Source: Paraburkholderia acidisoli (GTDB lineage Bacteria; Pseudomonadota; Gammaproteobacteria; Burkholderiales; Burkholderiaceae). From it: 64,000 bases of DNA. The DNA is taken from assembly GCF_009789675.1 (NCBI RefSeq), contig NZ_CP046913.1, positions 682,001 through 746,000 on the forward strand, written 5' to 3'. Below, piece after piece: positions 38,032 to 64,000 of this stretch (position 1 is the first letter of the stretch; each line of letters opens with the position of its first letter). The notes beneath the pieces are model-generated. The model saw only the letters and a list, made by a program, of their open reading frames with translations. It was not told where the DNA came from and made no database searches. A program made the translations under genes and the position numbers.

Positions 38032-39005
38032 GCGGGATATTGGTGACGGGCGCGAACGGCTTCGTGGGCCGCGCATTGTGCGAAACGCTGGTGCGTCATG
38101 GCCACGATGTCACGGCGTTGGTGCGGCGCGGCACGCTGGGTATGGCGGGCGTGCGCGAATGGCGCCACGATGCGCCCGACTTCGCTGGCCTGCTCGAAGC
38201 CTGGCCTGACGACCTGACGCCCGATTGCGTCGTTCATCTTGCCGCGCGCGTGCACGTGATGCGCGACGAGTCGCCCGATCCCGGGAAGGCGTTCCATGCC
38301 ACGAACGTCGAAGGGACGTTGCGCGTGGCGCGCGCCGCTCACGCGCGCGGCGTGCGAAGGCTGGTGTTCGCGAGCAGCATCAAGGCGGTTGGCGAGACGG
38401 ACGGCGGAACGCCGCTCGCCGAGTCGGCGGCGCCCGGTTGGCTCGACCCGTACGGCCGCTCGAAGCGCGAGGCGGAAGACGCGCTCTGGGCGCTGGGCGC
38501 CCAGACTTCGCTGGAGATCGTGGTCGTGCGACCGCCGCTCGTGTACGGACCGGGCGTGCGCGCGAACTTCTTGCAGATGATGAGTGCATTGTGGCGCGGT
38601 ATGCCGCTGCCGCTCGGCGCCATCGACGCGCGGCGCAGCATGGTCTACGCGGAGAATCTCGCCGATGCGCTCATGCGATGCGCGACCGACGCCCGCGCCG
38701 CGAACGCGTGCTTCCATGTGGCCGATACCGACGATCTTTCGGTCTCCCAATTGCTGCGCGTACTCGCCGACGACCTGGCCAAACCCGCGCGCCTGATTCC
38801 GGTTCCGCCTGGTCTGCTGAGCGTGGCGGGCAGGTTGACGGGGCGCTCGGCGCAGATCCAGCGGCTGACGTCCGACTTGCGGCTCGACACCTCGCTGATT
38901 CGCGAGAAGCTGGATTGGCAGCCGCCGTTCACGGCCAAAGAGGGACTTGCGAAAACCGCGCGCTGGTATCGTGAGACGCAAGCGACGCGCCATTCACACA
39001 CGTAA
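38016..39005 (+). CDS. NAD-dependent epimerase/reductase, WbpV/WbiG-like
   Basis: 329 residues. Extended SDR fold: ILVTGANGFVGRAL at the N-terminus, HLAARVHVMRDESPDP, FASSIKAVGE and YGRSKREAE (YxxxK), then VVRPPLVYGPGVRANF. In P. aeruginosa O6, WbpV acts with WbpM in making UDP-QuiNAc, and in B. pseudomallei the homologous order is wbiG-wbiH-wbiI, as I recall. The same order of epimerase, initiating transferase and dehydratase is seen here. Start ATG 38016 overlaps the GT2 gene; GTG 38028 is an alternative. Confidence 0.85.
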   Translation: MEVAVSGILVTGANGFVGRALCETLVRHGHDVTALVRRGTLGMAGVREWRHDAPDFAGLLEAWPDDLTPDCVVHLAARVHVMRDESPDPGKAFHATNVEGTLRVARAAHARGVRRLVFASSIKAVGETDGGTPLAESAAPGWLDPYGRSKREAEDALWALGAQTSLEIVVVRPPLVYGPGVRANFLQMMSALWRGMPLPLGAIDARRSMVYAENLADALMRCATDARAANACFHVADTDDLSVSQLLRVLADDLAKPARLIPVPPGLLSVAGRLTGRSAQIQRLTSDLRLDTSLIREKLDWQPPFTAKEGLAKTARWYRETQATRHSHT

Positions 39006-39010
39006 CGACC

Positions 39011-40039
39011 ATGCATGTTTCCATACCGGCAGTTGCCGTATTGATCGCCCTGGTTTGCGCTTCGTTATGCGCGGCCATTCTCGCCGTTCTGCTGAAAAGC
39101 GGGCTGGCGTGGCGGCTCGCGACCGACATCCCCAATGACCGGTCGCTGCACGTTCGGCCAACGCCGCGCGTGGGCGGCTGGGGCATGATGCCCGTCGCCG
39201 TCGCCGCGATCCTTCTGCTGGCGCCGTCGCTCTGGCTGATCGCGCTCGGCACGCTGCTGCTGATGGGTATTTCGCAAATCGACGACCGCCGCGGTTTGCC
39301 TGCGCGCGTGCGCTTCGCCGCGCATTTCGTCGCCGTGGGCGCGCTGGTCCTGGTGTATCCCGCGCCGGTGCCATGGTGGTGCGCCGCCGTGGTGGCGTTC
39401 CTGATGCTGTGGCTCGTCAATCTCTACAACTTCATGGACGGCTCGGACGGCCTCGCGGGAGGCATGGCGCTCTTCGGCTTCGGCGGTTACGCGCTCGCGG
39501 CGCTCGCCGGGCCGCATCCGCTTCCCGCGCTAGGCTGGGCCGCCGCCGCGATCGCGGGCTCGGCGGCGGGATTTCTGCTGTTCAACTTCCATCCGGCCAA
39601 AGTATTTCTCGGCGACGCCGGCTCCATTCCCACGGGTTTTCTGGCCGGAGCACTCGGCTATTGGGGGTGGCGTACCGGCGTCTGGGCGATCTGGTTCCCG
39701 GCGCTGGTGTTTTCGCCGTTCATCGCCGACGCCTCCGCCACGCTGTTGAAGCGTCTCGCGCGTGGCGAAAAATTTTGGCAGGCCCATCGCGAACACTATT
39801 ATCAGCGTATGGTCCGCTCCGGCACTGGCCATGCCGCCACGGCGCTGATATGGTACGTGGTGATGGGACTGGGCACGGCGCTTGCTGTCTGGTCTCTTGG
39901 GCGTTCGCCCGCTCTGCAGTGGGCAATCGTCGGGGCTTGGGTAGCCATCCTTGTGGTGATGGGCTTGGCAATTGACGTTCGCTGGCGGAGTTTTCAATCC
40001 CCAGCAAGACAACGTGAGGTGAATGCTGATGCTCCGTAA
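39011..40039 (+). CDS. Undecaprenyl-phosphate sugar-1-phosphate transferase, WbpL/WbiH-like (GT4 MraY-WecA superfamily)
   Basis: 342 residues with about ten hydrophobic segments. Starts O-chain assembly by transferring a HexNAc-1-phosphate (by WbpL precedent UDP-QuiNAc or FucNAc) to the lipid carrier. Superfamily motifs: RSLHVRPTPRVGGWG, LLMGISQIDDRRGLP (DD), NLYNFMDGSDGLAGG, and KVFLGDAGSIPTGF, ending with HREHYYQRMV, the loop typical of the WecA/WbpL branch. Inner membrane. Its end overlaps the next gene by 17 bases. Confidence 0.93.
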   Translation: MHVSIPAVAVLIALVCASLCAAILAVLLKSGLAWRLATDIPNDRSLHVRPTPRVGGWGMMPVAVAAILLLAPSLWLIALGTLLLMGISQIDDRRGLPARVRFAAHFVAVGALVLVYPAPVPWWCAAVVAFLMLWLVNLYNFMDGSDGLAGGMALFGFGGYALAALAGPHPLPALGWAAAAIAGSAAGFLLFNFHPAKVFLGDAGSIPTGFLAGALGYWGWRTGVWAIWFPALVFSPFIADASATLLKRLARGEKFWQAHREHYYQRMVRSGTGHAATALIWYVVMGLGTALAVWSLGRSPALQWAIVGAWVAILVVMGLAIDVRWRSFQSPARQREVNADAP

Positions 40040-41909
40040 TAAGGCCGGATGGCTATCGTTCGGCGCGTTTCTATTCGACATCAGCGCGGTGGCCGCTGCG
40101 TGGCTGGTCGCCTATCTGCTGCGCTTCAACGCCTCGGTTCCCACGGACTTCTGGCGTGGCGCAATCGACACGCTGCGTTGGGTGCTGCCCATCTACGCGG
40201 TCATGTTCCGCTGCTTCGGCTTGTATCGCGGCATGTGGGTGTTCGCGAGCCTGCCCGACCTGATGCGCATTACCAAAGCGATTGCTTCGGCCGCGCTGCT
40301 GTCCATGATCGTGTCGGTCATGCTGCAACCGACCCCGATCATTCCGCGCTCCGTGTTGATCGTCTCGCCGCTCCTCGTTTTCTTCATCATGGGCGGCTCC
40401 CGGGCGCTTTATCGCGCGACCAAGGAGTTTTACCTGTACGGCGCATTGGTTGCGCAAGGTAAGCCCGTGATCGTGATCGGCGCCGGCGGCGCCGGTGCGA
40501 GCCTGGCGCGCGAACTGTCGCGCTCCGCCGAGTGGCGTCTTGTCGGCTTGCTCGACGACGACCCGGCCAAGCAAGGGCGCGAGATTTACGGCTACAAGGT
40601 ATTGGGCGCGATCGGCGACGTCGCGCACTGGGCGCAGGCGCTCCGGTGCGACTTCGCCATTATCGCGATACCGTCGGCATCGGCCGAAGCGCAGCGCCGC
40701 GCGGCCACCCAGTGTGTGCGCGCGGGCGTCAAGGCGCTCGTCCTGCCCGCATTGAAAGAGCTCTTGCCGGGAGCGGGCTTTCTCTCGCAGGTGCGCAACA
40801 TCGACCTCGAGGACTTGCTCGGCCGCGACGCGGTCAAGATCGACACGCCGCACGTCGAAGCGCTGTTGCGTGGCCGCGTGGTCATGGTGACGGGTGCCGG
40901 CGGCTCGATCGGCTCCGAACTGTGCCGCCAGATTCTCCGCTTCGCGCCCGCGCAGCTCGTGGCGCTCGATCTTTCCGAATATTCCATGTACAAGCTCACC
41001 GAAGAAATTCGGGAGCGCTTCCCCGAGCTTTCGCTGGTGCCCGTGGTGGGCGATGCCAAAGACGCGCTGTTGCTCGACCAGGTCATGGCGCGCTACACGC
41101 CGCACATCGTGTTTCATGCGGCGGCCTACAAGCACGTCCCGCTCATGGAGGAACTGAATGCGTGGCAGGCGGTTCGCAACAACGTCCTGGGCACGTATCG
41201 CGTGGCGCGCGCGGCGATCAAACATAAGGTCCGCCACTTCGTCCTGATTTCGACCGACAAGGCCGTCAACCCGACGAACGTGATGGGCGCGAGCAAGCGC
41301 CTCGCGGAAATGGCGTGCCAGGCATTACAGCAGACGAATGACCATACGCATTTCGAGACGGTCCGCTTCGGCAACGTGCTGGGCAGCGCCGGAAGTGTGA
41401 TCCCGAAGTTCCAGCAGCAGATCGCGAAGGGCGGGCCGGTAACGGTCACGCACCCGGAAATCACGCGCTTCTTCATGACCATTCCGGAGGCGTCGCAACT
41501 CGTGTTGCAGGCTTCGAGCATGGGGCACGGCGGCGAGATCTTTATTCTGGACATGGGGCAGCCCGTGAAGATCGTCGACCTCGCGCGCGATCTGATCCGC
41601 CTGTATGGCTTCAACGAAGATCAGATTCACATTGCCTTCACGGGGCTTCGGCCTGGCGAAAAGCTCTACGAAGAATTGCTCGCGGACGACGAAACGACCA
41701 CGCGCACGCCGCATCCGAAGTTGCGCATCGCGCGCGCGCGCGAAGTGCCCAACAATCTTCTCGACGAATTGCTGCCCTGGCTGATGCAGCACCGCATTCC
41801 CGGCGACGACGAAGTGCGGCGTGACTTGCGACGCTGGGTGCCCGACTACAGCCCGGCCACGGTGCCGGTTCTGCAAAGTGTTCCCGAGGTAGGGCGGGCA
41901 GCAGGCTGA
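40023..41909 (+). CDS. Nucleoside-diphosphate-sugar 4,6-dehydratase, WbpM/CapD/WbiI-like
   Basis: 628 residues. Four N-terminal membrane helices (about 10-120), a Rossmann-like domain beginning VIVIGAGGAGASLARELSR, then the catalytic SDR domain with VMVTGAGGSIGSELCRQ, HAAAYKHVPLME and LISTDKAVNPTNVMGASK; the last has Met where many SDRs have Tyr, as in WbpM. It makes UDP-4-keto-6-deoxy-GlcNAc for QuiNAc or FucNAc. Last gene of the long plus-strand operon. ATG 40023 is used; ATG 40029 is equally possible. Confidence 0.95.
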   Translation: MLMLRNKAGWLSFGAFLFDISAVAAAWLVAYLLRFNASVPTDFWRGAIDTLRWVLPIYAVMFRCFGLYRGMWVFASLPDLMRITKAIASAALLSMIVSVMLQPTPIIPRSVLIVSPLLVFFIMGGSRALYRATKEFYLYGALVAQGKPVIVIGAGGAGASLARELSRSAEWRLVGLLDDDPAKQGREIYGYKVLGAIGDVAHWAQALRCDFAIIAIPSASAEAQRRAATQCVRAGVKALVLPALKELLPGAGFLSQVRNIDLEDLLGRDAVKIDTPHVEALLRGRVVMVTGAGGSIGSELCRQILRFAPAQLVALDLSEYSMYKLTEEIRERFPELSLVPVVGDAKDALLLDQVMARYTPHIVFHAAAYKHVPLMEELNAWQAVRNNVLGTYRVARAAIKHKVRHFVLISTDKAVNPTNVMGASKRLAEMACQALQQTNDHTHFETVRFGNVLGSAGSVIPKFQQQIAKGGPVTVTHPEITRFFMTIPEASQLVLQASSMGHGGEIFILDMGQPVKIVDLARDLIRLYGFNEDQIHIAFTGLRPGEKLYEELLADDETTTRTPHPKLRIARAREVPNNLLDELLPWLMQHRIPGDDEVRRDLRRWVPDYSPATVPVLQSVPEVGRAAG

Positions 41910-48948: not shown

Positions 48949-50226
48949 CTAGCGGCGAAAACACCGGCGCGCGAACCTCAGCGGCGCCGTCACGCGCCAT
49001 GATGTGGAGTTGACGAACGAGCTGATTTCCGCGTCGCGAGCCGTCACCTGTGAGTTGAGCTGCGCGATTTGATCTTCGCGGGAAGCCAGTTCACTGCCAC
49101 AGGTCGTGAGCCGGGTTTCGTACTCGCGAATCGTTGCTTGACTGCGTTGCATGGCGGCATCGCGCGCGGCGATTTCCCGCGCGTGCGTTTCGGCCACCGC
49201 CGCGCTGCGCGCGTTCGCTTGCTCGAGTTCGGCGTGCAGTTGCGCTTCGCGGTTAGCGGCGTTGAGCACGGCTTGCTCGAAGGCAACGGACTGCTTGTGC
49301 TCGATGTCCAGCGCAACGTGCAGTTTGCGGATATCGAGCTCGAGGTCCCAGCCATAAGTAAGCAAAGCCTCGGAGCTGAGCAAGAACCGTTCCGCGATAT
49401 CCAGCGCTTCCGTGAGCGCCGCCCGGCGAACCGGCGTTGGCGTTCGAGCGGCCGCCACCATGGCCGAAAAAAGCGTTTTCATCGGCGCGGGCGCGGCGTC
49501 GTCCTGCTCGAGATCGTCGATTCCGTAAGCGGAGTGACGTAGGCCCTGTTCCAGGAAGTCCTGCTCGAAGATTTGCGCTTTGGCCGGGTCCACCGGTAGA
49601 GCAAACGTTTGCGCGAGTTTGCGCAATTCGGCGCCCGGAGCTTCCATCAACCGGTCGTAGTCTAGCAGCACACGCGGTTGCGCCTCGGTAAAGCGCAGCG
49701 CGGGCACCACGTGCGCGAGCCAAAGCATGTGCGATTTGCCGCGCGGGATCTTATTACGGCTGGCCAGCGAGTCCGCCACGCTGAGCGGATGGCGGAAGGG
49801 CACGACGTAGCGCATGCTCGCGCCGAAGCGGTCGAACACGCGCTGCCAGAATGGCAGCAGGCGGCCGATACGCGGATCTTTCAACGCAAACGTGCCGTTC
49901 GCGCATTTGGCCTGGAGCAGCGCGAGCGCGCGTTGCTCGAAAGCGCCGAGCTGGTCTCGGCTCAAACGATCGAGGTGCGGCGAAGGCAGCGCCTGCCAAT
50001 CCACGCCCGCTGCCTCCATCAGCTCCATATTCAACCGGATGATGTCGCTGTCTTCGAAAAAGCCTTTCGGGTTGTCGGGGCCGGCGGGCCAGAGCGTGTT
50101 GCCGAGGCTCGCGCCCATGGCTTCCATCATTCGCGTTGCCACACTCGTGCCGCTGCGGTGCATTCCCAGCACGATGATCAGCGTGCGCGTGGCGAGGGCG
50201 GGAAAAGGGGCGGTTGCGGCTAGCAT
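48949..50226 (-). CDS. Sulfotransferase with C-terminal coiled coil
   Basis: 425 residues. IVLGMHRSGTSVATRMMEAMG is the PAPS 5'-phosphosulfate loop with intact RSGTS, and YVVPFRHPLSVADSL (about residue 140) fits the 3'-phosphate binding site. The C-terminal 295-400 is coiled coil and the last 20 residues carry NSTSWRVTAPLRFARRC (406-422). It is translationally coupled to the APS kinase gene upstream (stop and start overlap at 50220-50226), which would supply PAPS. Its acceptor is likely the glycan made by the neighbouring genes. Confidence 0.9.
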   Translation of the reverse strand: MLAATAPFPALATRTLIIVLGMHRSGTSVATRMMEAMGASLGNTLWPAGPDNPKGFFEDSDIIRLNMELMEAAGVDWQALPSPHLDRLSRDQLGAFEQRALALLQAKCANGTFALKDPRIGRLLPFWQRVFDRFGASMRYVVPFRHPLSVADSLASRNKIPRGKSHMLWLAHVVPALRFTEAQPRVLLDYDRLMEAPGAELRKLAQTFALPVDPAKAQIFEQDFLEQGLRHSAYGIDDLEQDDAAPAPMKTLFSAMVAAARTPTPVRRAALTEALDIAERFLLSSEALLTYGWDLELDIRKLHVALDIEHKQSVAFEQAVLNAANREAQLHAELEQANARSAAVAETHAREIAARDAAMQRSQATIREYETRLTTCGSELASREDQIAQLNSQVTARDAEISSFVNSTSWRVTAPLRFARRCFRR

Positions 50227-50780
50227 GGCGATCGTTCAACCTGGGCAAGGCAGCGTTGGAGCGGGAGCGCCGCGTAGAGTTGTTGCACGCATTCCTCGGC
50301 GCTGCGGTCGGCGGTGCGAAGCACGATGTCGGGGTTCGTGGGCGCGCGATAGGGTGAGTCGATGCCGGTGAAGCCGGCGATACTGCCACCGCGCGCACGT
50401 TTATAGAGCCCCTTCGGATCGCGGCTTTCGCAGATGAACAGCGGTGTGTCGACAAAAACTTCAATAAATCTTTTGCTACCCGCAATGCGCCGCGCATTTT
50501 GCCGATGTTCGGGCTCGGGAGAAATGGTGGCCGTAATGACGGCGTATCCTTCATCGCAAAAGAGCGCGGCGACGTGCGCGACACGACGCAGATTTTCACT
50601 GCGGTCCGCCGCGCTGAAACCCAGATCCGAATTGAGTCCGGCCCGAAGCACATCGCCGTCGAGCGCGATGGCGCGCACACCTTCGTTCTGCAATTTGACG
50701 ACCAGTTCACGCGCAATGGTCGACTTGCCGGCACCCGACATACCCGTCATCCACACCACGACGCCAGTTCGCATTTCCAT
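50220..50780 (-). CDS. cysC: Adenylylsulfate (APS) kinase
   Basis: 186 residues, full-length single-domain kinase. Phosphorylates APS to PAPS, the sulfate donor. Walker A GMSGAGKSTIAREL, DGDVLRAGLNSDLGFS and ENLRRVAHVAALF are the CysC signatures, and VFVDTPLFICESRDPKGLY follows. No CysD/CysN homologue is in the window, so APS must come from the cell's sulfate assimilation enzymes. The last codons overlap the sulfotransferase start, which dedicates it to sulfation rather than to cysteine synthesis. Confidence 0.95.
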   Translation of the reverse strand: MEMRTGVVVWMTGMSGAGKSTIARELVVKLQNEGVRAIALDGDVLRAGLNSDLGFSAADRSENLRRVAHVAALFCDEGYAVITATISPEPEHRQNARRIAGSKRFIEVFVDTPLFICESRDPKGLYKRARGGSIAGFTGIDSPYRAPTNPDIVLRTADRSAEECVQQLYAALPLQRCLAQVERSPC

Positions 50781-51001
50781 TGAAAAATCCCCGCGAGCGA
50801 CGCAAAAAATCGGTTTGATTTTTCATTCTAGCTTCAATCGGCAAGCTGACACCTTTCTGAAATAAACCGCAACAACTGCCCGCGAGCCGTTGTTTACATT
50901 GGAACAATCGCTCACATTATTTCGACCCTGATGCAGTTCGCATTATTGAAATTCCAATGCGTTATATGATGGGCGTCACGTTCCTTGGGATGAGATGCAA
51001 A

Positions 51002-52231
51002 ATGGATCGACGCGATCAGATTTTGAAATACATCGGGAAAGAACAGCTCGGTATCGAGATCGGCCCGTACTGCTGGCCGCTCACGCCCAAGCGCGACGGC
51101 TACCGGTGCCTCGTCATGGACGTATTCGATACGGCGACCACGAGGGCGCGGGCGGCGGAGAACCCGACCTTCACCGCCGAGGTTCTGGCGGGCATCGAGG
51201 ACATCGACCTCGTGGGTTCCAGCACGCTGATCGACGACGTCATCGAGCGCGAAGGCCGTCTCGGCGAGTTCGATTACATCGTTTCCTCACACAATTTCGA
51301 ACATCTCCCCAATCCGCTGCGATTCCTGCAGGGCTGCGCAAGAGTGCTGAAGCCCGAGGGGATCATTTCGATGGCGATTCCCGATCGGCGCGCCTGCTAC
51401 GATTATTTTCGCCCGGTGACGCGGCTCGCCGACTGGCTCGACGCATGGTTGACCGATCGGCATAGACCCACCTATGCGCAATCCTTCGACGAGCGCTGGG
51501 TGCGGGCCAGTTACGATCATCACGGCGTGCCCTACGGCAGTTTCTTCCAGGGCGCCGACCCGGCACTCATTACGGCGGCCATGACGTTCGAGGAAGACTT
51601 CGCGATGTGGCGCGATCGTTTGAAAGCGAACGACGCGGAATACCACGACGCGCATTGCTCGGTCTTCACGCCGGCCTCGCTCGAATTGCTTCTGCGCGAC
51701 AGTGCGTGGCTCGGGCTCATTCCCTTCGAAGTCGTCGAGATCTATCACTCGCCGGGCGTGGATATCTTTGTTCATCTGCGCCGGTTGCGGAGTGTCGAAG
51801 ATGCGCGGCCGGCCGACTACCCGGCAATACGCGAGCGTTTGCTGCACCGCGTGCTCGAGGAAGCCGCGCAGACGTCGAAAATCGGCCACCTGCTGGGCGG
51901 GCTCGATCAGCAGCAGGTCGAGCGCATGGTGCAGGCCGGCCGCGATGCCGGTAGCGCCGACGCCGACGCGCTGGCGCAGCTACAGCGCGAGTCCAACGAA
52001 CTTCGTGCCCAGGTGAGCGCGCTCCAGGCCCAGCTCGGCGAAACCGAACGCGCGGCCAGTTACGCGCGTTCCGAGCGGCTCGCGTTGCAGCGCGAAGTGG
52101 CCGAAAGCCGCGAGAAAGAGCGCCATTTGAATGCGTCGATAGCGGATCTTAGAGAATCGACCAGTTGGCGTATCACCGCGCCAATTCGCAAGGTCAAGCA
52201 GGCCTTGAGCAAAAAGGCGCCCATGAACTGA
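51002..52231 (+). CDS. SAM methyltransferase with C-terminal coiled coil
   Basis: 409 residues from ATG 51002; an earlier ATG 50957 would add 15 residues. The SAM domain (1-250) starts with QLGIEIGPYCWPL and has FDYIVSSHNFEHLPNPLRFL and VLKPEGIISMAIPDRR, the methyltransferase type found in many O-antigen loci. A long coiled coil spans about 300-380, ending in ESTSWRITAPIRKVKQA (385-401) and a basic tail. Divergent from cysC. Probably methylates a sugar of the glycan; the acceptor is unknown. Confidence 0.85.
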   Translation: MDRRDQILKYIGKEQLGIEIGPYCWPLTPKRDGYRCLVMDVFDTATTRARAAENPTFTAEVLAGIEDIDLVGSSTLIDDVIEREGRLGEFDYIVSSHNFEHLPNPLRFLQGCARVLKPEGIISMAIPDRRACYDYFRPVTRLADWLDAWLTDRHRPTYAQSFDERWVRASYDHHGVPYGSFFQGADPALITAAMTFEEDFAMWRDRLKANDAEYHDAHCSVFTPASLELLLRDSAWLGLIPFEVVEIYHSPGVDIFVHLRRLRSVEDARPADYPAIRERLLHRVLEEAAQTSKIGHLLGGLDQQQVERMVQAGRDAGSADADALAQLQRESNELRAQVSALQAQLGETERAASYARSERLALQREVAESREKERHLNASIADLRESTSWRITAPIRKVKQALSKKAPMN

Positions 52232-52484
52232 GCGTGAAGTGGGCGGGAAGCCAGGCGTTAGACATTTCCTCAAATGTTCACACGATTAACGCTGGCTTCT
52301 TCGCACAGATCCCGCTTCCGGGCGTTCCTCATTGCAGCGGGTAGCGGAACTCGCGGTCCATGCCCGCGCCGTTCCGGCCGTGCCGCGGTTGTGGGCACAA
52401 TCCATAAACTGTAAAGTGGCGCCTTGCCATTGGCGCACCTTCCTGCCCGGTTAATTCATCACTTTGGTCTCTGCTGTCCAAACC

Positions 52485-53909
52485 ATGCGTCGAAATCCGC
52501 TCGTTGTCGACCTCGACGGTACTTTGATCCGTTCCGACGTGCTGGTCGAATCGGGATTCGCGTTCCTGAAATCGGCGCCGCTCAGCTTCTACAAGCCGTT
52601 TCTGTGGCTTGCGCGCGGCGGCAAGCCCGCGCTCAAGGCGGGCCTCGCCGAACACACGAACGTCGACGTCACCGTGCTTCCGTATGACGCGACGGTCGTC
52701 GAATGGCTCAAGGAGGAGCGGGCGGCGGGGCGCGAGATCGTACTCGCGACGGCCAGCCATGAACGTTACGCGCATGCGATCGCCGACCACCTGGGTCTGT
52801 TCGACGCCACTTTCGCGACCGCCGACGGCGTGAATCTCTCCGCGCGCCGCAAGCGCGACAAGCTCGTAGCCGAATTCGGCGAGAAGAATTTCGACTACGC
52901 CGGCAACTCGCGCGACGACGTCGCGGTCTGGGAAGCGGCGGGGCGGGCCTATGTCGTCAATCCGGACAGCGGCGTGGAGCGCGCGGCGCGCAAGCTCGGC
53001 AACGTCGAGCGTGTGATCGAGACGCGGCCGCCCACGCTCAAGACGTGGATGAAGTCGTTGCGGCTGCATCAATGGCTCAAGAATCTGCTGATTTTCGTGC
53101 CGCTGCTGGCTGCGCACCGGATCACCGATCCCGCCCTCATCGTGATGGCGCTGCTCGCGTTTTTCGCGTTCGGGCTGTGTGCGTCGAGCGTCTATCTGCT
53201 CAACGACTTGCTCGATCTCGAAGACGATCGCCACCATCCGACCAAACGCCGGCGTCCGCTCGCTTCGGGGGCGTTGCCGCTGACGTGGGGGATCGGCATC
53301 TTTCCGGTGCTGCTGCTCGCGGCCTTCGCGCTGACCGTGCTGTATCTACCCGTGCGGTTCGGCATCGTGCTGCTCGGCTATTACGCGCTCACGCTGGCCT
53401 ATTCGATGTTTTTGAAGCGCCAGGTGATGGTCGATGTCGTGGTGCTCGCGATGCTTTACACGATCCGCATCGTGGCAGGCACTGCGGCGATCGGCGCGCA
53501 TCTCACGTTCTGGCTGCTGGCGTTCTCGATGTTCATCTTCCTGAGCCTCGCGCTCGTGAAGCGCTACGCGGAACTGCATTCGATGCAGGCGCGCGGCCAG
53601 GTCAAGACGCGCGGTCGCGGTTATCTCGCCGACGATCTGCCGCTGATCTCGTCGCTCGGCACGGCGGCCGGCTATCTGGCGGTACTGGTGCTCGCGATGT
53701 ACATCCAGGACGGCGCCACGGCGAAGCTTTATCGTCACACCCAGGTCATCTGGCTCGCGTGCCCGCTGCTGCTTTACTGGGTGAGCCGCACGTGGATCAT
53801 CGCGCACCGCGGCCAGATGCATGACGATCCCATCGTGTTCGCGGCGCGCGACCGCGTGAGTCTCGCGGTGGTTGCGCTGTGCGGCCTGGTCTTCTGGGCG
53901 GCGATCTAA
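52485..53909 (+). CDS. HAD phosphatase-UbiA prenyltransferase fusion, DPPR synthase-like
   Basis: 474 residues from ATG 52485. Residues 1-175 are a HAD hydrolase (VVDLDGTLIRSDV and late GNSRDDVAVWEA). From about 185 on there is a UbiA domain with nine hydrophobic segments and the prenyl-diphosphate motif NDLLDLEDDRHHP (near 240), followed by RRPLASG. This pattern resembles the mycobacterial decaprenyl-phosphate 5-phosphoribosyltransferase, which uses PRPP. The HAD part may then remove the 5-phosphate. It converges on dprE2/dprE1/gtrA, which would finish polyprenyl-phosphoryl-arabinose. The function is inferred from motif and context. Confidence 0.85.
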   Translation: MRRNPLVVDLDGTLIRSDVLVESGFAFLKSAPLSFYKPFLWLARGGKPALKAGLAEHTNVDVTVLPYDATVVEWLKEERAAGREIVLATASHERYAHAIADHLGLFDATFATADGVNLSARRKRDKLVAEFGEKNFDYAGNSRDDVAVWEAAGRAYVVNPDSGVERAARKLGNVERVIETRPPTLKTWMKSLRLHQWLKNLLIFVPLLAAHRITDPALIVMALLAFFAFGLCASSVYLLNDLLDLEDDRHHPTKRRRPLASGALPLTWGIGIFPVLLLAAFALTVLYLPVRFGIVLLGYYALTLAYSMFLKRQVMVDVVVLAMLYTIRIVAGTAAIGAHLTFWLLAFSMFIFLSLALVKRYAELHSMQARGQVKTRGRGYLADDLPLISSLGTAAGYLAVLVLAMYIQDGATAKLYRHTQVIWLACPLLLYWVSRTWIIAHRGQMHDDPIVFAARDRVSLAVVALCGLVFWAAI

Positions 53910-54014
53910 TCTCGTCGCCAGAAGCTGCGCGCGCTGCTCGATCCGTTCACGCGCGGTTGGCCTTGACGGTGCAGCCGTACGGGGCGCGGCAAATTCCGCC
54001 AGAGGCCGCCCAAC

Positions 54015-54764
54015 TCAAATATTCATCTTGTTGAAAACGAACGCAGGCAAATGCCGGATGATCATCATGATGATCGCCCACTTGCCCGGCACATAAGCCA
54101 CGGGCCGCTTGCGGTCCACGGCGCTCACGATCTGCGTGGCCACCTGTTCCACCGGGGCGAGCTTGGCGCCCGTGCCCTTCATGTGCGCGGTCATGGGTGT
54201 GTCGGTCGGGCCGGGCTTGATGAGGCACACGGCCACGCCCGTACCGGCGAGCCGATGCTGCAAGCCTTGCACGTAGCGCGTGACCAGACCCTTCGCCGAA
54301 CCATAGACGTAGTTCGACTTGCGGCCGCGATCGCCGGCCACCGAGCCGATCACGGCGATCGTCCCGCGGTTCGCGCGCGCCATGTGCTGCACGAATGCTT
54401 CCGCATAGAGCACGGGCGAGATCGCGTTGACTTCGAGCGCTTCGCGGCTGGCCTGCAGGTCGTTCTGGCAGGTGGACTGGTCGGGCAGCGAGCCGTGCGC
54501 GATCAGCACGATGTCGGGCAGGCCGGCCGCCGCGATACCGTCCACCGTCGCCTGAATGGCGGCCGGATCGACGAAATCGGTGGTGGCCACGCGGATGGCG
54601 GCTTGCGGCGCACGCACCGCGAGGTCGGCGGCAACCCGTTCGAGTCGGGCGGCGTCGCGGCCGAGCAGCACGAGTTCCGCCGCGCCGGCGGCGAGCCACG
54701 CGCGCGCGCAATGTTGGGCGATCGAGGACGTTGCCCCGACGATGACTATTTTCTTGCCGCTCAA
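54015..54764 (-). CDS. Decaprenylphosphoryl-2-keto-ribose reductase-like SDR (DprE2-like)
   Basis: 249 residues. A TTG at 54764 is chosen as start: GGGAG lies 7 bases upstream and it sits 1 base after the dprE1-like stop. SDR features are IVIVGATSSIAQHCARAW (NADP loop), IAHGSLPDQ, NAISPVLYAEAF and the catalytic YGSAK. It resembles mycobacterial DprE2, which reduces the 2-keto intermediate to arabinose. The partner oxidase is directly upstream, so the two steps of the epimerisation are encoded together. Confidence 0.87.
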   Translation of the reverse strand: MSGKKIVIVGATSSIAQHCARAWLAAGAAELVLLGRDAARLERVAADLAVRAPQAAIRVATTDFVDPAAIQATVDGIAAAGLPDIVLIAHGSLPDQSTCQNDLQASREALEVNAISPVLYAEAFVQHMARANRGTIAVIGSVAGDRGRKSNYVYGSAKGLVTRYVQGLQHRLAGTGVAVCLIKPGPTDTPMTAHMKGTGAKLAPVEQVATQIVSAVDRKRPVAYVPGKWAIIMMIIRHLPAFVFNKMNI

Positions 54765-54765
54765 G

Positions 54766-56103
54766 TTAGCTCCCCATGAGGCGTCGCGACAGCCCGGAAC
54801 TGATGCCGGGGTCGCGGAATGTCGAAAAATCGGCGAGTGCCGGATAGCCTGCTTCGAAGAGGTCTCGCGGCATGCGCGCGTCTTTGGCGGGATAGATGCG
54901 GCCGCCGGCTTCGCGCACGATGGCGTCGAGCCGCTCGAACAGCGCAAGCGTGCTCGCGCCTTGATTCGGAAAGTCGAGCGCGAGCGTCACGCCCGGCTGC
55001 GGAAAGCTCAGCATGCCGACCGGATAGCGGTTGCCGAACGTTTTCAGCACCGCGAGAAACGAGCCGTTGCCGCTTTTCGCGATTTCGCCGAGCATGGCCT
55101 GGGTGGCTTCGAAACCGGCCGCGCGCGGCACGACGCTCTGATACTGATAGAAGCCCTTCGGGCCGTACATGCGGTTCCAGTCGCTGATGCTGTCGAGCGG
55201 ATAGAAGAACGGTTCGTAATGCGCGAGTGCCCGTCCGGCGCGCCACTTCTTCAAATGAAAGTACGCGGCGTTGAAGGGCGGCAGCGTCAGCCGGTTGACG
55301 AGCGAAACCGGCGGCACGAGCGGCATCGGCAGATTTTTCGCGCGCGGTTCGACGCGCCGCTCGGTCGCCTGCACCGCAGCCGTATTCGCGCGCATGAAAA
55401 GGCCGCGTCCCGCCGCGCTGCCCACGCAGTCGATCCATGCCACGGTGTGTTCCCAATCGGCCTCGGAGGCATCGGCGAGCGGAAAGAATTCAGCGAGGCT
55501 GGCAAAGGGCAGCGTTTCAGTGTCGAGCCAGGGACCGGCGGTGCGGCGCAATTGCAGTTCCGCCTTGAGGATCACACCCGTCAGCCCGAGTCCGCCTACC
55601 GTTGCCGCGAACCACTCGCGGTTCAGGTCGGGGCCGCATTCGATGAGCTCGCCGTTCGTGCGCGCGAGCGTGAGGCGCAGCACGTGGTCGCCGAACGAAC
55701 CCACGGCGTGATGGTTCTTGCCGTGCACGTCGTTGGCGATCGCGCCGCCGACCGTCACCAGTTGCGTGCCGGGCGTGACCGGCAGCATCCAGCCGCGCGC
55801 GATAAATAGCCGCTGGATATCGCGTAACAACACGCCCGCTTCGCAGACAAGACGACCGGTTTCGGCGTCGAATGCGATCAGGTGGTCGAGCCCGGTGGTC
55901 GTCCAGAGCACGCCGCCGGGATTCAGGCAGGCGTCGCCGTAGCTGCGGCCCATGCCGTGGGCGAGACCGCGCGCCGCGTTCGGATCGTGCGGATCGCGCC
56001 CGGGCTCGCCGCGCAGGGCAACGGGCGCGCTGTTCAGGTCGGTGAGCGGGATGACGTCGTGCGCGTCGGCGCTCAGGCGTCCCCACGAGTTGACGGGTCT
56101 CAT
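54766..56103 (-). CDS. Decaprenylphosphoryl-ribose 2-oxidase-like FAD enzyme (DprE1-like)
   Basis: 445 residues from ATG 56103, which overlaps the gtrA stop. FAD-linked oxidase with HGMGRSYGDACLN, VTPGTQLVTVGGAIAND, VHGKNHHAVGSFGDHV and, near the C-terminus, IYPAKDARMP, all matching mycobacterial DprE1. The flavin-side residues and the Lys of AKD are kept. At the site of the DprE1 cysteine attacked by benzothiazinones (ICVDFP) the sequence is LALDFP, with Ala375. It oxidises the C2 hydroxyl of polyprenyl-phosphoryl-ribose. Sits between gtrA and dprE2-like genes. Confidence 0.92.
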   Translation of the reverse strand: MRPVNSWGRLSADAHDVIPLTDLNSAPVALRGEPGRDPHDPNAARGLAHGMGRSYGDACLNPGGVLWTTTGLDHLIAFDAETGRLVCEAGVLLRDIQRLFIARGWMLPVTPGTQLVTVGGAIANDVHGKNHHAVGSFGDHVLRLTLARTNGELIECGPDLNREWFAATVGGLGLTGVILKAELQLRRTAGPWLDTETLPFASLAEFFPLADASEADWEHTVAWIDCVGSAAGRGLFMRANTAAVQATERRVEPRAKNLPMPLVPPVSLVNRLTLPPFNAAYFHLKKWRAGRALAHYEPFFYPLDSISDWNRMYGPKGFYQYQSVVPRAAGFEATQAMLGEIAKSGNGSFLAVLKTFGNRYPVGMLSFPQPGVTLALDFPNQGASTLALFERLDAIVREAGGRIYPAKDARMPRDLFEAGYPALADFSTFRDPGISSGLSRRLMGS

Positions 56104-56516
56104 GCGGCGCGCGCCCCGAAAACGAAGCGCTTGTCGAGGTGATACTTCGCGACATAGCCGAACGCGAGACCGATGATGCCGCCGACATAGCGCATCGTGC
56201 TGGTGTGGAACAGATGCTCGAAGCCGAATTCGAAGCCCCAGAAGATGACGGTCGTGACCAGTCCCATCACCGTGTAGAGAAAGAACGTCTGGAGGTCGTG
56301 CGCCGCATTGTTCGCGCGAAAGCGGAAGATATAGCGCTTGTCGAGCACGTACTTCACGACAAGCCCGACACCTGTGCCGACGATCACCGAAAGCGCAATG
56401 GCGTACGGACCGGACCACGCGCGCACAAAGAGATCCTGCGCGCCGATATTGGCCGCGGTCGCGATGAGCGCGAGCACGGCATAGACAGTCGCGAGCCGGG
56501 TGGTGGCGAAAAGCAT
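56100..56516 (-). CDS. GtrA family membrane protein
   Basis: 138 residues, four predicted membrane helices. YVLDKRYIFRF near the middle and YHLDKRFVFG at the C-terminus are the paired family motifs. GtrA proteins are proposed to flip or anchor lipid-linked sugars; the mycobacterial member beside dprE1/dprE2 has been proposed to act in decaprenyl-phosphoryl-arabinose handling. Its stop overlaps the dprE1-like start by 4 bases, supporting that role here. ATG 56516 is the family start. Confidence 0.92.
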   Translation of the reverse strand: MLFATTRLATVYAVLALIATAANIGAQDLFVRAWSGPYAIALSVIVGTGVGLVVKYVLDKRYIFRFRANNAAHDLQTFFLYTVMGLVTTVIFWGFEFGFEHLFHTSTMRYVGGIIGLAFGYVAKYHLDKRFVFGARAA

Positions 56517-56750
56517 CGTGAAGTGGGCGGTGCCGGAAAGGGGAGACCGGCAATCATACTGTATGTGGCTCGCCCGAACGGTGCCGCGGATGACGGTTGG
56601 CGCGGTTTTTCGCGCTGGGGCCCGTGAGCCGGGCGATCGACCGCCGTCGTGGATTGAATCCCTTACGGGCGCGCGAAACGGCAATGCGGCCCTGATTTTT
56701 TGCGCAAAACGCGTTATGTGGCGATGTGCGGCGATGCGTGCGATGCGCGC

Positions 56751-56778
56751 CACAGGACGGCCCGAAAACCGTCCTGTG
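56751..56778 (-). terminator. Hairpin after galE
   Basis: Perfect 10-base arms CACAGGACGG and CCGTCCTGTG with an 8-base loop, 15 bases after the galE stop on the minus strand. No T-run follows, so factor-dependent termination or mRNA 3' end protection is possible. It separates galE from gtrA-dprE1-dprE2. Confidence 0.5.
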
Positions 56779-56792
56779 CCGTTAGAGGGGCG

Positions 56793-57833
56793 TTACTCGA
56801 ATCCGCGCGGATTCTGCTCCTGCCAGCGCCAGTGATCCACGCACATGCGCTCGATCCCGTACTGCGCCTTCCAGCCGATCAGTTTTTCCGCCGTGGCCGG
56901 ATTCGCGTAGCACTCGGCGATGTCGCCGGGGCGCCGCGCCACGATCTCGTACGGCACCGGCCGGCCCGACGCCGCTTCGAACGCCTTCACGACTTCCAAC
57001 ACGCTGTAGCCGCGCCCCGTGCCGAGATTGACGATGAAGCCTTCGCCGCGCGCCGCGAGCGCGTCGAGCGCCTTCAGGTGGCCCTTGGCGAGGTCGACCA
57101 CGTGGATGTAGTCGCGCACGCCCGTGCCGTCCACGGTCGGGTAATCGCCGCCGAACACGCGCAGCTTCTCGAGTTTGCCCACGGCCACTTGCGCGACGTA
57201 CGGCATGAGATTGTTCGGCACGCCGGCCGGATCTTCGCCGATCAGCCCGCTTTCGTGCGCGCCCACCGGGTTGAAGTAGCGCAGCACGGCAATGCGCCAC
57301 GACGGGTCCGAGATCGCGACGTCGCGCAGGATCTGCTCGGCGATCAGCTTGGACTGGCCGTAGGGGTTGGTCGCCGAAAGCGGGAAGTTTTCGTCGATGG
57401 GCGAGCTTTGCGGCACGCCATATACCGTGGCCGACGAACTGAACACGAACTGCTTCACGTCGTGCTTGCGCATCACGTCGAGCACGACGAGCAGGCCGTC
57501 GAGATTGTTGAGGTAATACTCGATCGGCTTCGCGACGGATTCGCCCACGGCCTTGAGCGCCGCGAAGTGGATCACGCCGTCGATTTGATGCGTGGTGAAT
57601 ATTTTCGAGAGCGCCGCAGCGTCGCGCACGTCGGTCTGATAGAACGTGACGGCCTTGCCTGCGATGCGCTCCACGCGCTTGAGCGACTCGCTGCGGCTGT
57701 TGACGAGGTTGTCGACGGCGATCACGTCGTAGCCGTCGTTCAGCAGCTCGACGCAGGTATGCGAGCCGATAAAGCCCGCACCGCCGGTGACGAGAATGGT
57801 GCCTTTCGTGCTTTTCGTATTCGTTGCGCTCAT
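56793..57833 (-). CDS. galE: UDP-glucose 4-epimerase
   Basis: 346 residues from ATG 57833. NAD loop [35 protein letters not shown] and the catalytic YGQSK identify GalE, with RYFNPVGAHESG and DYIHVVDLA late on. Interconverts UDP-glucose and UDP-galactose (or the GlcNAc/GalNAc pair) for surface polysaccharide. It sits downstream of a GT4 gene on the same strand, 29 bases away, so these two are probably cotranscribed. Confidence 0.96.
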   Translation of the reverse strand: MSATNTKSTKGTILVTGGAGFIGSHTCVELLNDGYDVIAVDNLVNSRSESLKRVERIAGKAVTFYQTDVRDAAALSKIFTTHQIDGVIHFAALKAVGESVAKPIEYYLNNLDGLLVVLDVMRKHDVKQFVFSSSATVYGVPQSSPIDENFPLSATNPYGQSKLIAEQILRDVAISDPSWRIAVLRYFNPVGAHESGLIGEDPAGVPNNLMPYVAQVAVGKLEKLRVFGGDYPTVDGTGVRDYIHVVDLAKGHLKALDALAARGEGFIVNLGTGRGYSVLEVVKAFEAASGRPVPYEIVARRPGDIAECYANPATAEKLIGWKAQYGIERMCVDHWRWQEQNPRGFE

Positions 57834-60509: not shown

Positions 60510-61661
60510 GTGTCCGAGATGAACGGCCCGACCACGCAGAGAAATGGCTTCCTGGATGGCTTGCGCGGTTGGGCTGCGATCATGGTTCTGCTGGCGCATC
60601 TGATTCGAGGCGTGGCATCCACGGCGGCGCCCGCGTTGAACAAGCCGTTTTTGCTGTTTCCGACCGACGGCGACTTCGCCGTGTACGTTTTTTTCGTGGT
60701 GTCGGGTTTTGCCCTGTCCTGGCAATACTTTTCGACGAAAAGCGTCAAATCACTCACGTCGCTGGCGGTAAAGCGCTATCCGCGCTTGACGCTGCCGATT
60801 CTCGCATCGTCACTGATCGGCTTTCTCGTGTGGCGCTCGGGGCTCATGTTCAATCACGCGGCGGCGGCGGCGGTCAATAGTCCGTGGCTCGATTCGGCCT
60901 ACGGCTTCACTGCGTCTTTTGTCGATTGCCTGAAGTTCGCGCTGTTCGACGTGTTCTTCAACTACGATCCGCAGCATTCGTATAACGGCGTGCTCTGGAC
61001 GATGAGTATCGAGCTGTATGGTTCGATGCTGGTGGTCGGTCTGCTCGCCGTATTCGGTGTGTCGAACCGTGTGATTGCCTATCTGGGCGCCGCGCTGGTT
61101 TGCGCGCTGATCAACAGTCCGTTGCTCGCCTTTGTGTTTGGCATTGTGATTGCGGACACGTATCACGCGCGCAGCCGGTTGCGTTCCGTGCTGGAGTCGG
61201 TCGCACCGTATCTCGCCGTGCTCACGTTGATCGGCTGTGTCGCCGCATCGATCTACACGCCTTATCCCCGCGACGCGCGTTTTCTTTCGATGCTAGCGGC
61301 GTTCTCGGTACTGTCCGTCTCGTTCTGCGCGCCAGCCCGGCGTGTGTTCGAGTGGCCGATATCGCGCTCCCTCGGACATATTTCCTTTCCGCTTTACCTG
61401 ACGCACATGTTTGTGTTGCTGAGCTTCACGTCATGGTTCTTCTTGACCCTCGAGTCGCATGGTCTCGGCAAGCAGGCGGCGGCCAACTATGTGGTCATGG
61501 CAACCGTGCCGCTTTGTCTTCTGGGCGCCATCGCATTTCTGCCTGTCGAATCCGCTTCGATACGCCTGTCGCGATGGTTCTCCCGGGTTTGTCTCGCGCG
61601 TGACGTTGGCGTGCTGAACCCCTCGCGCGCGGCCGCCTCTGAAACAAAGGGTCGGCCGTAG
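60510..61661 (+). CDS. OafA-type membrane acyltransferase
   Basis: 383 residues from GTG 60510 behind AAAGG; ATG 60519 is an alternative. Acyltransferase-3 family: FLDGLRGWAAIMVLLAHLIRG holds the catalytic His, FFVVSGFALSW and KRYPRLTLPIL follow, then about nine more membrane segments with LGHISFPLYLTHMF late in the chain. It acetylates or otherwise acylates a sugar in the glycan, probably on the periplasmic side. Another member of the same family follows 81 bases later. Confidence 0.93.
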   Translation: MSEMNGPTTQRNGFLDGLRGWAAIMVLLAHLIRGVASTAAPALNKPFLLFPTDGDFAVYVFFVVSGFALSWQYFSTKSVKSLTSLAVKRYPRLTLPILASSLIGFLVWRSGLMFNHAAAAAVNSPWLDSAYGFTASFVDCLKFALFDVFFNYDPQHSYNGVLWTMSIELYGSMLVVGLLAVFGVSNRVIAYLGAALVCALINSPLLAFVFGIVIADTYHARSRLRSVLESVAPYLAVLTLIGCVAASIYTPYPRDARFLSMLAAFSVLSVSFCAPARRVFEWPISRSLGHISFPLYLTHMFVLLSFTSWFFLTLESHGLGKQAAANYVVMATVPLCLLGAIAFLPVESASIRLSRWFSRVCLARDVGVLNPSRAAASETKGRP

Positions 61662-61742: not shown

Positions 61743-62945
61743 ATGCCTCTTGCCGGTTTTCCTGGGCTCGTCTTGCCCACGCTGATTGTCACGGCGCTCC
61801 TGTTTCTGATCGCGAAAGTCATTGATAGAAGATCGTCGTTTTATCGGCAACAGGTCGACGAGGAGTTGTCGGCCACGCGCTTTCATTCCATCGACGGACT
61901 GCGCGGATTCCTGGCGATTGCCGTCATGTATCACCACGCGGTGATCACTTATTTTTACTATGCGACCGGCCGTTGGGACGTGCCTCCTTCGAGACTCGGC
62001 ACCTTGCTCGGTCAAGGCGCCGTCGCGATGTTCTTCATGGTGACGGCGTTGCTGTTCTGGACGCGCGCGCTCAAGGCGCAAGGCCGCATGGATCTGCGGC
62101 GGTTCTTCTGGTCGCGCATTACCCGCATGGTGCCGATGTACGTGGTGTCGTCGGGTGCATTGATCGTCACGGCGTTGGCGCTCACGCATTTCCGCCTGAA
62201 TTACCCGCTGATGCAGCTTTTCAGGGATATCACGTCCTGGCTGCTGTTCACGCTTCCGGGGCAACCCGATGTGAACGGCATGGTGAACACAAAATACATC
62301 AACACGGTGTACTGGTCGCTGGTGTACGAGTGGGACTTCTATCTGCTTTTTCCGTTGATGATGTTCTTCGCGAACCGTCGAGGAAGCTGGATTCTCTTTG
62401 TGGTTTCGGCGTTGCTGATCGCCTGGCATTCGGTCAATAACGTCGAGTGGTATTTCCTCTATGGCGCGCTGACCGCAACGCTGCTCTTTCAGTTTCCGCA
62501 AATCAAGAATGTCTTGCGCGGCGTAGTGGGTTCATTGCTCATTGTCGTAATGAGTGCGGCGATTCTGCATGAAACACCAACGGCTTATGATCCCAGATAT
62601 GCACCGCTATTCTTTGGCATTTTTCTCGTGGTCGCATCCGGGAATTCGTTCTTTGGCATTCTCACTTCGCGGGCTGCGCGTGTTCTCGGGATGATCAGTT
62701 ATAGCGTTTATCTGACGCACAACTATCTTTTGTATCTCACGTTCCGGCTGGTCAATCACTTCCGGGATGTGCAGACTTTGCCTGTCCACGTGTTCTGGGT
62801 CATTACCGGTAGCGTTGCCGTCGTGGTGATCGGGTTGTCCGCCGTGACGTATCGTTTCGTTGAATATCCGTTCCTGAAAATGCGGGTACCCGGGGAGCGC
62901 ACGGAAAGTGCCTCGCCTGCGGCCATGTCGGGTTCGGCGCGGTAG
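61743..62945 (+). CDS. OafA-type membrane acyltransferase (second copy)
   Basis: 400 residues, with a GAGGAAT site before ATG 61743. An N-terminal hydrophobic helix precedes the family core FHSIDGLRGFLAIAVMYHHAV. Further motifs are AMFFMVTALLFWTRAL, RFFWSRITRMVPMY and MISYSVYLTHNYLLY; about ten membrane segments in all. Not a recent duplicate of the preceding gene: only the core motifs match by eye. Role as above, with acceptor and acyl group unknown. Confidence 0.93.
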   Translation: MPLAGFPGLVLPTLIVTALLFLIAKVIDRRSSFYRQQVDEELSATRFHSIDGLRGFLAIAVMYHHAVITYFYYATGRWDVPPSRLGTLLGQGAVAMFFMVTALLFWTRALKAQGRMDLRRFFWSRITRMVPMYVVSSGALIVTALALTHFRLNYPLMQLFRDITSWLLFTLPGQPDVNGMVNTKYINTVYWSLVYEWDFYLLFPLMMFFANRRGSWILFVVSALLIAWHSVNNVEWYFLYGALTATLLFQFPQIKNVLRGVVGSLLIVVMSAAILHETPTAYDPRYAPLFFGIFLVVASGNSFFGILTSRAARVLGMISYSVYLTHNYLLYLTFRLVNHFRDVQTLPVHVFWVITGSVAVVVIGLSAVTYRFVEYPFLKMRVPGERTESASPAAMSGSAR

Positions 62946-63071: not shown

Positions 63072-64000
63072 ATGACTCAAGCAAAAAACGGCGTCGGCAT
63101 CGATCGGACGATCACACTTTTCGCCCTGTTACTCGGGGCATTCGTCACGGTGACGACCTGTGTGGGCGTCTGGCGTTTCGGCTCGGCCACCATTTTCTGG
63201 GACGAGTGGGACGGCTACCTCGGCTTCTATCGCCGCATTCACGAAGTGGGTGGCGTCAGCCCGTGGTTCGAGAATCACGTTCAGCACCGCATTTTCACGA
63301 CGCGCGTGCTCGCATGGCTGGATATCACGTTGTTTCACGGCAGCCATGCCATTCTGTTTATCGGTGAACTGGTCACACTGGGCGGCGTCGTGTATTTCAT
63401 CGCTAAACGGAGTGCCGGTGCCGCTCGCGTGCTGGCAATCGGCCTTGGCGCCGCATTGCTGTATTCCTGGTCGCAATCGGAATCGCTGACCTGGGGTTTT
63501 GTTTTTCAGGTTACGTCGGCGTATTTTTTCGCTGTCTGGTCGATATACGCTTTTACGCGCGAAGAATGGTCTGCATACAGGCGATTCGGCATTGCGCTGG
63601 TCATGTCGATCCTTTCCGAATTGTCGATGGGAAACGGTCTCGGCGTACCGCTCGTTCTACTGGCGCTGACAGTGGTATTGCGACGTCCATTGAAGGAGGG
63701 CCTTGCGGCGCTGCTCATCGCTGTCGTCACCATTCCGCCGTACTTCTATCACCTGGCGCCCGCCGACGGCCCGCGGCCGGAATCGGAAGCGGGTTCGCAT
63801 CTGCTGTTTTTGCTGAAATTTTTCGCGTTGACACTGGGAAACCCGCTCTGCCAGATTAACGCGGCAATCTCGGTGAGCATGCTGGTCGGCGCCATGACGT
63901 TTGTCGCGAGCCTCGTATTGGTGGCGTGGCTCTGGTTGAGGAAGCGGGTCACCTGGTACCGCGGTTTTCTGATCGGCGTCTGGCTTTTTGCCGTGGCGTG
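63072..64000 (+). CDS. Multispanning membrane protein, possible GT-C glycosyltransferase (3' end outside window)
   Basis: At least 309 residues from ATG 63072, no stop before the window ends. A first membrane helix (about 12-35) is followed by a loop with W43-D-E-W-D47, then at least seven more helices. An acidic pair in the first extracytoplasmic loop is the hallmark of GT-C transferases that use lipid-phosphate sugars. Being beside the polyprenyl-phosphoryl-arabinose genes, it is a candidate arabinofuranosyltransferase. It could also be a flippase, ligase or unrelated protein; no named family was recognised. Confidence 0.6.
   Translation, partial: MTQAKNGVGIDRTITLFALLLGAFVTVTTCVGVWRFGSATIFWDEWDGYLGFYRRIHEVGGVSPWFENHVQHRIFTTRVLAWLDITLFHGSHAILFIGELVTLGGVVYFIAKRSAGAARVLAIGLGAALLYSWSQSESLTWGFVFQVTSAYFFAVWSIYAFTREEWSAYRRFGIALVMSILSELSMGNGLGVPLVLLALTVVLRRPLKEGLAALLIAVVTIPPYFYHLAPADGPRPESEAGSHLLFLLKFFALTLGNPLCQINAAISVSMLVGAMTFVASLVLVAWLWLRKRVTWYRGFLIGVWLFAVA

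Follow-up and report, generated by a model that had tools for sequence, protein, structure and literature searches.

Which sugar donor do the genes at positions 52485-56516 of a 64,000-nucleotide stretch of Paraburkholderia acidisoli DNA provide for, and on which surface glycan would it be spent? The stretch (hereafter, the window) corresponds to positions 682001-746000 of contig 1 in a genome of 7.9 Mb, and has a GC content of 64.7%. The genes in question encode a fusion of a HAD-family domain with a UbiA-family domain (HAD-UbiA), relatives of the mycobacterial enzymes DprE1 and DprE2, and a small membrane protein of the GtrA family. From their sequences and neighbours, they are likely to form a cassette for the periplasmic addition of D-arabinofuranose (D-Araf) to the O-chain of lipopolysaccharide (LPS), a reading in which we infer reactions, lipid, sugar and acceptor alike. 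The gene identities, the retention of active-site residues, the linkage of a first GT-C glycosyltransferase to DprE1 and an O-antigen-type context are directly established. The pathway type is already known in Gram-negative bacteria (Kelly et al. 2024, Pseudomonas aeruginosa, Azorhizobium), so the gene set in itself is no surprise; the new parts are the apparent chimerism of the cassette and an unnamed GT-C family linked to DprE1.

The core genes and the predicted donor

The UbiA, DprE1-like, DprE2-like and GtrA genes lie where the original prediction had placed them, in agreement of coordinates and frames, and all four reading frames are intact:

52485-53909, plus strand: HAD-UbiA fusion gene, an open reading frame from ATG (52485) to stop (53909)
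52485-53009 (border approximate), plus strand: HAD-family domain, the N-terminal part of the fusion, candidate 5'-phosphatase of polyprenyl-phosphoryl-5-phosphoribose
53031-53909, plus strand: UbiA domain, predicted polyprenyl-phosphate 5-phosphoribosyltransferase (PPPRS, Rv3806c-like)
54015-54764, minus strand: gene for a DprE2-like short-chain dehydrogenase/reductase (SDR), start TTG at 54764, predicted 2-keto reductase
54766-56103, minus strand: gene for a DprE1-like flavin adenine dinucleotide (FAD) oxidase, predicted polyprenyl-phosphoryl-ribose 2-oxidase
56100-56516, minus strand: gene for a small membrane protein of the GtrA family, predicted to act on the lipid-linked sugar as its flippase or as a partner

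The last three genes form a tight run, in which the GtrA and DprE1-like genes overlap in an ATGA and the SDR gene starts one base past the DprE1-like stop, both as originally described. The UbiA gene is convergent with this run on the opposite strand, so the four genes do not constitute one operon.

In a phmmer search of the PDB, the best match of the UbiA protein is DPPR synthase (3.9e-30), and the only entries at E <= 0.001 are 8j8j and 8j8k, both of the mycobacterial enzyme. The DPPR-synthase-like motif NDLLDLEDDRHHPTKRRRPLASG, already noticed in the original prediction, is present from residue 240, and the pattern ND-x-x-D...HPTKR-x-RP of this nearest solved relative is kept. Pfam recognises the UbiA domain (3.3e-22) and, upstream of it, a HAD domain (7.2e-8) that had previously gone unnamed, while the NCBIfam model PRK08238 ('UbiA family prenyltransferase') spans residues 2-474 with 695.3 bits (cut-off 351). 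The HAD domain carries DLDGT at residue 9, LATAS at 87 and GNSRDD at 140, which we take to be the HAD catalytic motifs, and the single chain can be read as a putative HAD phosphatase-PPPRS fusion.

The DprE1-like protein matches DprE1 over nearly its full length (phmmer, 1.5e-73), the remaining PDB relatives matching mainly the N-terminal part. It contains the VHGKNHH motif ascribed to it earlier, and residues counted on the PDB alignment show that Y60, H132, Q334, Q336 and K418, presumably with FAD-related or catalytic roles in DprE1, are kept, and that C387 is replaced by Ala. As Cys387 of the Mycobacterium tuberculosis enzyme is the residue attacked by benzothiazinones, covalent inhibition by these compounds is not expected here. 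The SDR finds its best PDB match in DprE2 (21gq_C, 1.6e-25; runner-up 3.5e-14), and the GtrA protein belongs to its family according to both NCBIfam (gtrA_1, 1.6e-55, 186.6 bits) and Pfam (PF04138, 3e-8, 34.3 bits). The top structural matches are therefore DPPR synthase, DprE1 and DprE2, and not members of unrelated oxidase or SDR families.

The family cut-offs of NCBIfam weigh against a full equation of these proteins with the mycobacterial enzymes. The UbiA protein scores 160.8, 147.6 and 126.4 bits with the decaprenyl-phosphate phosphoribosyltransferase models, the cut-offs of which are 207, 234 and 474; the DprE1-like protein reaches 341.8 bits with the mycobacterial equivalog NF053785 (cut-off 500); and the SDR obtains 2.9e-46 and 158.1 bits with the DprE2 model NF053786 (cut-off 250), its top match being the general SDR model PRK07102 (254.6 bits, just under the cut-off of 267). 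On these comparisons the three core enzymes look like functional relatives, and not certified orthologs, of their mycobacterial counterparts.

In the proposed route, the fused HAD domain would take off the 5'-phosphate, DprE1 would oxidise and DprE2 reduce C2, converting polyprenyl-phosphoryl-ribose into polyprenyl-phosphoryl-arabinose, and GtrA would aid the transfer of the lipid-linked sugar across the inner membrane. A GT-C enzyme encoded from position 63072, perhaps together with a second one, would then add D-Araf to the O-polysaccharide ahead of ligation. Lipid-bound D-Araf for the surface coat is very probably the product, as far as the sugar can be predicted from the genes. The original prediction had called the pathway complete. 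The four genes that it named did not demonstrate this, a phosphatase and a transferase being missing among them, but candidates for both are present, in the HAD domain and in the GT-C gene.

A GT-C family linked to DprE1

The candidate transferases, and the acyltransferases that precede them, are the following:

63072-64000, plus strand: N-terminal part of P0005, a GT-C glycosyltransferase whose gene is truncated where the window stops and continues to about 64709 (L129:5073-6710)
About 65134-67125 in window numbering, beyond the window end (L129:7135-9126): second GT-C gene, P0006, with an AftB-like DD motif
60510-61661, plus strand: membrane acyltransferase (Acyl_transf_3, Pfam 1.2e-25), candidate O-acetylation partner
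61743-62945, plus strand: second membrane acyltransferase (Pfam 2.4e-29), directly upstream of the P0005 gene

P0005, a gene absent from the original prediction, represents a family (A1) for which no Pfam or NCBIfam match was found. The VIA list for its AlphaFold model (pLDDT 86) has GT-C enzymes at ranks 1-30 and 32-35, among them the Emb and Aft arabinosyltransferases. The modelled GT-C fold places an Asp after the first membrane helix, and this residue, D80, is invariant in 24/24 rows of the A1 alignment. Of 22 locus hits, this alignment omits L048 (an over-long frame) as well as L127 and L129, which duplicate the own genome; of eight related proteins, it omits P0127 (the self entry), P0134 (a weak match) and, on account of their acyltransferase domain, P0131 and P0133. 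Compared by residues alone, D80, H108, R366 and Y367 recall D31, H106, R349 and Y350 of ORF12 (GT136) from Citrobacter youngae, with an Asp-His spacing of 28 vs 75.

The association of this family with DprE1 was followed through whole genomes. In this, as in every other whole-genome search, first-look candidates were scored up to a fixed number per genome, so that misses are possible and counts are lower bounds. Among 144 genomes of the same genus, DprE1 is found in 68 and A1 in 26 (both at E <= 1e-30), and all 26 A1 genomes, the own genome included, also have DprE1, with the nearest starts at most 5 kb apart in 24 and at most 12 kb apart in all 26. The hypergeometric value of 1.5e-10 ignores relatedness and the origin of A1 largely in DprE1-linked loci. 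In the order as a whole (399 genomes), 39 genomes have DprE1 at E <= 1e-60 and five have A1, all five with DprE1; in the three A1 genomes outside the genus the gap is about 2-4 kb, one of them (G335) having an internal stop and another (G424) a partial match. Of the 80 loci retrieved through their similarity to DprE1, 18 contain A1 matches (16 as frames of at least 300 residues), a count from DprE1-chosen loci that has no background. Strict linkage is opposed by 5 of the 34 A1 places in same-genus genomes, which lie on a different contig than DprE1, and by genome G006, which has a weak A1 match (6.6e-16) and no strong DprE1 (best 8.1e-5). One internal stop was seen in each of 5 of the 39 listed A1 places (G005, G066, G140 and G015, or 4/34, in the genus; G335, or 1/5, in the order). 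HAD-UbiA is present in 93 of the 144 genomes. It accompanies DprE1 in 67 of 68 cases and is missing from G156, a genome that is 84% complete. The presence of DprE1 in 68 of the 144 suggests a wide occurrence of lipid-linked D-Araf in the genus, and A1 provides a testable candidate transferase family that has no Pfam or NCBIfam name, CAZy not having been searched. The DprE1 relatives in 39 genomes of the order also matter for DprE1 as a drug target, and the window version lacks the cysteine targeted by benzothiazinones.

In P0006, D52-D53 is invariant in 22/22 rows (P0006 plus 21 of 120 listed proteins, the A2 alignment), resembling the DD motif carried by AftB according to PMC12041299. AftB ranks fifth by Z in the structure comparison (22.0; ALG12, at 24.4, and Pmt4 are ahead) and sixth by Foldseek (ArnT and ALG9/12 are ahead). 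Co-occurrence of P0006 with DprE1 is not demonstrable, as the protein was found in the own genome only (1/144 same-genus and 1/399 order genomes), and neither the A1 nor the A2 profile found a PDB entry up to E 10. The search of the own genome for the Pfam family ALO (PF04030) was negative (0/1), and the one match there to PMT_2 (PF13231) was rejected as a D-Araf transferase: its neighbourhood, judged by eye, is that of ArnT/ArnB, a 4-amino-4-deoxy-L-arabinose system.

Two acyltransferase genes before the GT-C gene, together with the Pfam acyltransferase domain carried by the GT-C relatives P0131 (904 aa) and P0133 (897 aa), hint at acylation coupled to glycosylation. Between about 60500 and the end of the window, GC values lie mostly at 56-59%. 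In G029 (L112, 9845-11524), the GT-C that comes after a genus-type cassette is a different one, the N-terminal part of which matches the NCBI terminal beta-arabinofuranosyltransferase model (7.3e-13, 47 bits vs a cut-off of 1050), so transferases may be exchanged at the locus.

Probable mixed ancestry of the cassette

The HAD-UbiA protein is 83-87% identical to those of genomes G081, G118, G014, G012, G015, G074 and G163, and nests with the same-genus rows in a quick tree (support 99). The window DprE1, in turn, is 46-53% identical to its counterparts in the 67 further same-genus genomes with DprE1, 70-75% to those of Polaromonas, Microbulbifer, Pseudochelatococcus, Noviherbaspirillum and Delftia, which belong to other families, and 85% and 83% to P0135 and P0136 (Paraburkholderia tropica), respectively. 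If P. tropica belongs to the genus, this DprE1 type is not unique there to the own genome.

In a careful tree of 46 rows (42 of 97, hand-picked, plus four proteins), the window DprE1 falls among the sequences of the Polaromonas, Microbulbifer, Pseudochelatococcus, Noviherbaspirillum and Delftia type, and the approximately unbiased (AU) test rejected a clade uniting 13 same-genus rows with the window row, P0135 and P0136 (p 1e-49, difference 71.9). We weight this tree above the quick 97-row one, in which a grouping of the window row with the 16 rows of the same genus was not rejected by this test (p 0.221, with a log-likelihood difference of 31.3), a result that was not decisive. The quick DprE2 tree has the window row in no starred set and the 16 same-genus rows outside a single clade, and the GtrA tree leaves the window row unplaced; hence the case for a joint transfer of the three genes draws on identity levels and gene order, with tree support confined to DprE1. 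A plasmid search returned 62 records with DprE1 relatives, all below 60% identity, and none with P0006, and there is therefore no sign, in that collection, of a plasmid-borne version.

A genus-type HAD-UbiA beside a GtrA-DprE1-DprE2 run of another type probably reflects, to judge from the sequences, the displacement of the native epimerase module, that is, the replacement of a sugar-epimerising module by that of another lineage. Alternatively, an ancient second copy may have been lost differentially. We put forward as a plausible, tentative proposal that A1 is an uncharacterised D-arabinofuranosyltransferase family travelling with DprE1, and that GtrA-DprE1-DprE2 was exchanged from another lineage next to a native entry enzyme. 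If true, sugar-donor modules would be interchangeable parts in the evolution of O-antigens.

O-antigen setting, acceptor and known systems

The following neighbouring genes of the window bear on the acceptor of the sugar:

28249-29031, plus strand: Wzm-like gene, named by eye
29041-29790, plus strand: Wzt gene (Pfam ABC_tran, 9.9e-21)
37114-41909, plus strand: GT2, epimerase, WbpL-like (PF00953) and WbpM-like (PF02719) genes, in an order repeated beside the genus-type cassette in relatives

Genes for dTDP (deoxythymidine diphosphate)-rhamnose, recognised by eye, lie, like the Wzm/Wzt-like genes, ahead of this last group. Genomes G012 and G163 keep the order wbpL, wbpM, cysC, galE, GT4, lrgB, GT2, wzx-like, manB-like, waaC-like, waaA-like (galE, manB, waaC and waaA by eye). 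At the present locus, the place between cysC and galE is taken by HAD-UbiA and the GtrA-DprE1-DprE2 run, and that between lrgB and the GT2 gene following it by the acyltransferases and both GT-C genes. The Wzm-like/Wzt pair suggests, from the sequences, an O-antigen exported by an ATP-binding cassette (ABC) transporter, and, with the gene order, suggests an LPS O-antigen region in which a side group of the O-chain is the likeliest target. Such a region, with an ABC-exported O-antigen, fits the Citrobacter prototype as described in PMC11127046. Of the acceptors that the original prediction had left open (O-chain, exopolysaccharide or pilin), the O-chain is thus the one best supported by gene context.

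Further genes of this region lie just upstream of the cassette. A P-loop protein (48949-50226) with the sequence GMHRSGTS is sulfotransferase-like by eye, with no NCBIfam match and one weak Pfam match below the cut-off. It shares with a methyltransferase (50957-52231) a charged, coiled-coil-like tail and the motif STSWR-x-TAP, and an APS (adenosine 5'-phosphosulfate) kinase gene (50220-50780) lies between them. Termination of the O-chain, combined with a length ruler, is a possible role of the two proteins.

The same donor might instead decorate another surface polysaccharide, such as an exopolysaccharide or a capsule, made from the region. The many glycosyltransferases, the flippase-like gene downstream and the fact that genus-type cassettes are not always beside the same genes are in keeping with this, but the Wzm/Wzt-like, WbpL-like, WbpM-like and nearby waaC/waaA-like genes (the latter by eye) point to LPS, and we regard this acceptor as unlikely. 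Still less likely is a type IV pilin or other protein, the kind of acceptor that a GT-C enzyme, TfpW, serves in group IV strains of P. aeruginosa (as reported in PMC11841053), for the neighbouring genes compared with Pfam include no pilin, a search that did not extend beyond this neighbourhood. The oxidase and SDR could also act on another substrate, with the HAD-UbiA product being used as ribose or another pentofuranose. At E <= 1e-30, 26 of the 93 same-genus genomes with HAD-UbiA lack DprE1, which shows the first step able to exist by itself, and the lipid-linked sugar of these genomes may be ribose or a different pentofuranose; the missed equivalog cut-offs agree with such a role. However, the kept active-site residues and the presence of HAD-UbiA in nearly every DprE1 genome make it very improbable for the window. 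That the chimera is a decaying remnant, with HAD-UbiA and the other module joined by chance and yielding no product, would suit the convergent layout and the lack of a match in a sigma-70-like promoter scan of 52200-57000 (0.5 expected by chance, low power), but is hardly credible in view of four intact frames in a genome where neither DprE1 nor HAD-UbiA has another copy at E <= 1e-30.

Periplasmic transfer of D-Araf to the LPS O-chain, our preferred reading, has counterparts in several systems. With the mycobacterial decaprenyl-phosphoryl-arabinose pathway (Rv3806c, Rv3807c, DprE1, DprE2 and Rv3789), the locus shares the step order and the sequence similarity of three core enzymes. It differs in the scores under the equivalog cut-offs, in the acceptor, probably an O-chain here and arabinogalactan there, and in the phosphatase, a fused HAD domain here and the separate, unrelated Rv3807c there. 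In pilin arabinosylation as reported for P. aeruginosa group IV strains, a PPPRS-type entry is likewise combined with a GT-C transferase; the present locus differs in its O-antigen-type setting, with no pilin in the neighbourhood compared with Pfam. For Nod factor arabinosylation by noeCHOP of Azorhizobium caulinodans, noeC, noeH and noeO were proposed to provide the D-arabinose precursor from their similarity to M. tuberculosis genes (PMC2443382), the acceptor there being a lipo-chitooligosaccharide. D-arabinose is also reported from Devosia submarina, as part of a polysaccharide of the cell wall (PMC8707391); in titles and abstract openings, no report of D-arabinose in O-antigens of the Burkholderia group was noticed.

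The closest parallel is the three-component addition of pentofuranose in C. youngae O1/O2, in which, according to Kelly et al. 2024 (PMC11127046), the side chains are provided by a phosphatase fused to PPPRS together with a flippase and a GT-C enzyme. Both systems combine a HAD-PPPRS fusion, a lipid-linked pentofuranose donor, a flippase, a GT-C with a C-terminal beta-rich domain and an ABC transporter-dependent O-antigen, all of these read from genes in the present case. In C. youngae, however, the sugar is ribofuranose or xylofuranose, the flippase is of the MATE type and the GT-C belongs to GT136, whereas DprE1/DprE2 and GtrA are found here. The same paper reports homologs of DprE1/E2 at candidate loci for glycans that contain Araf, so that the combination described here was anticipated in print.

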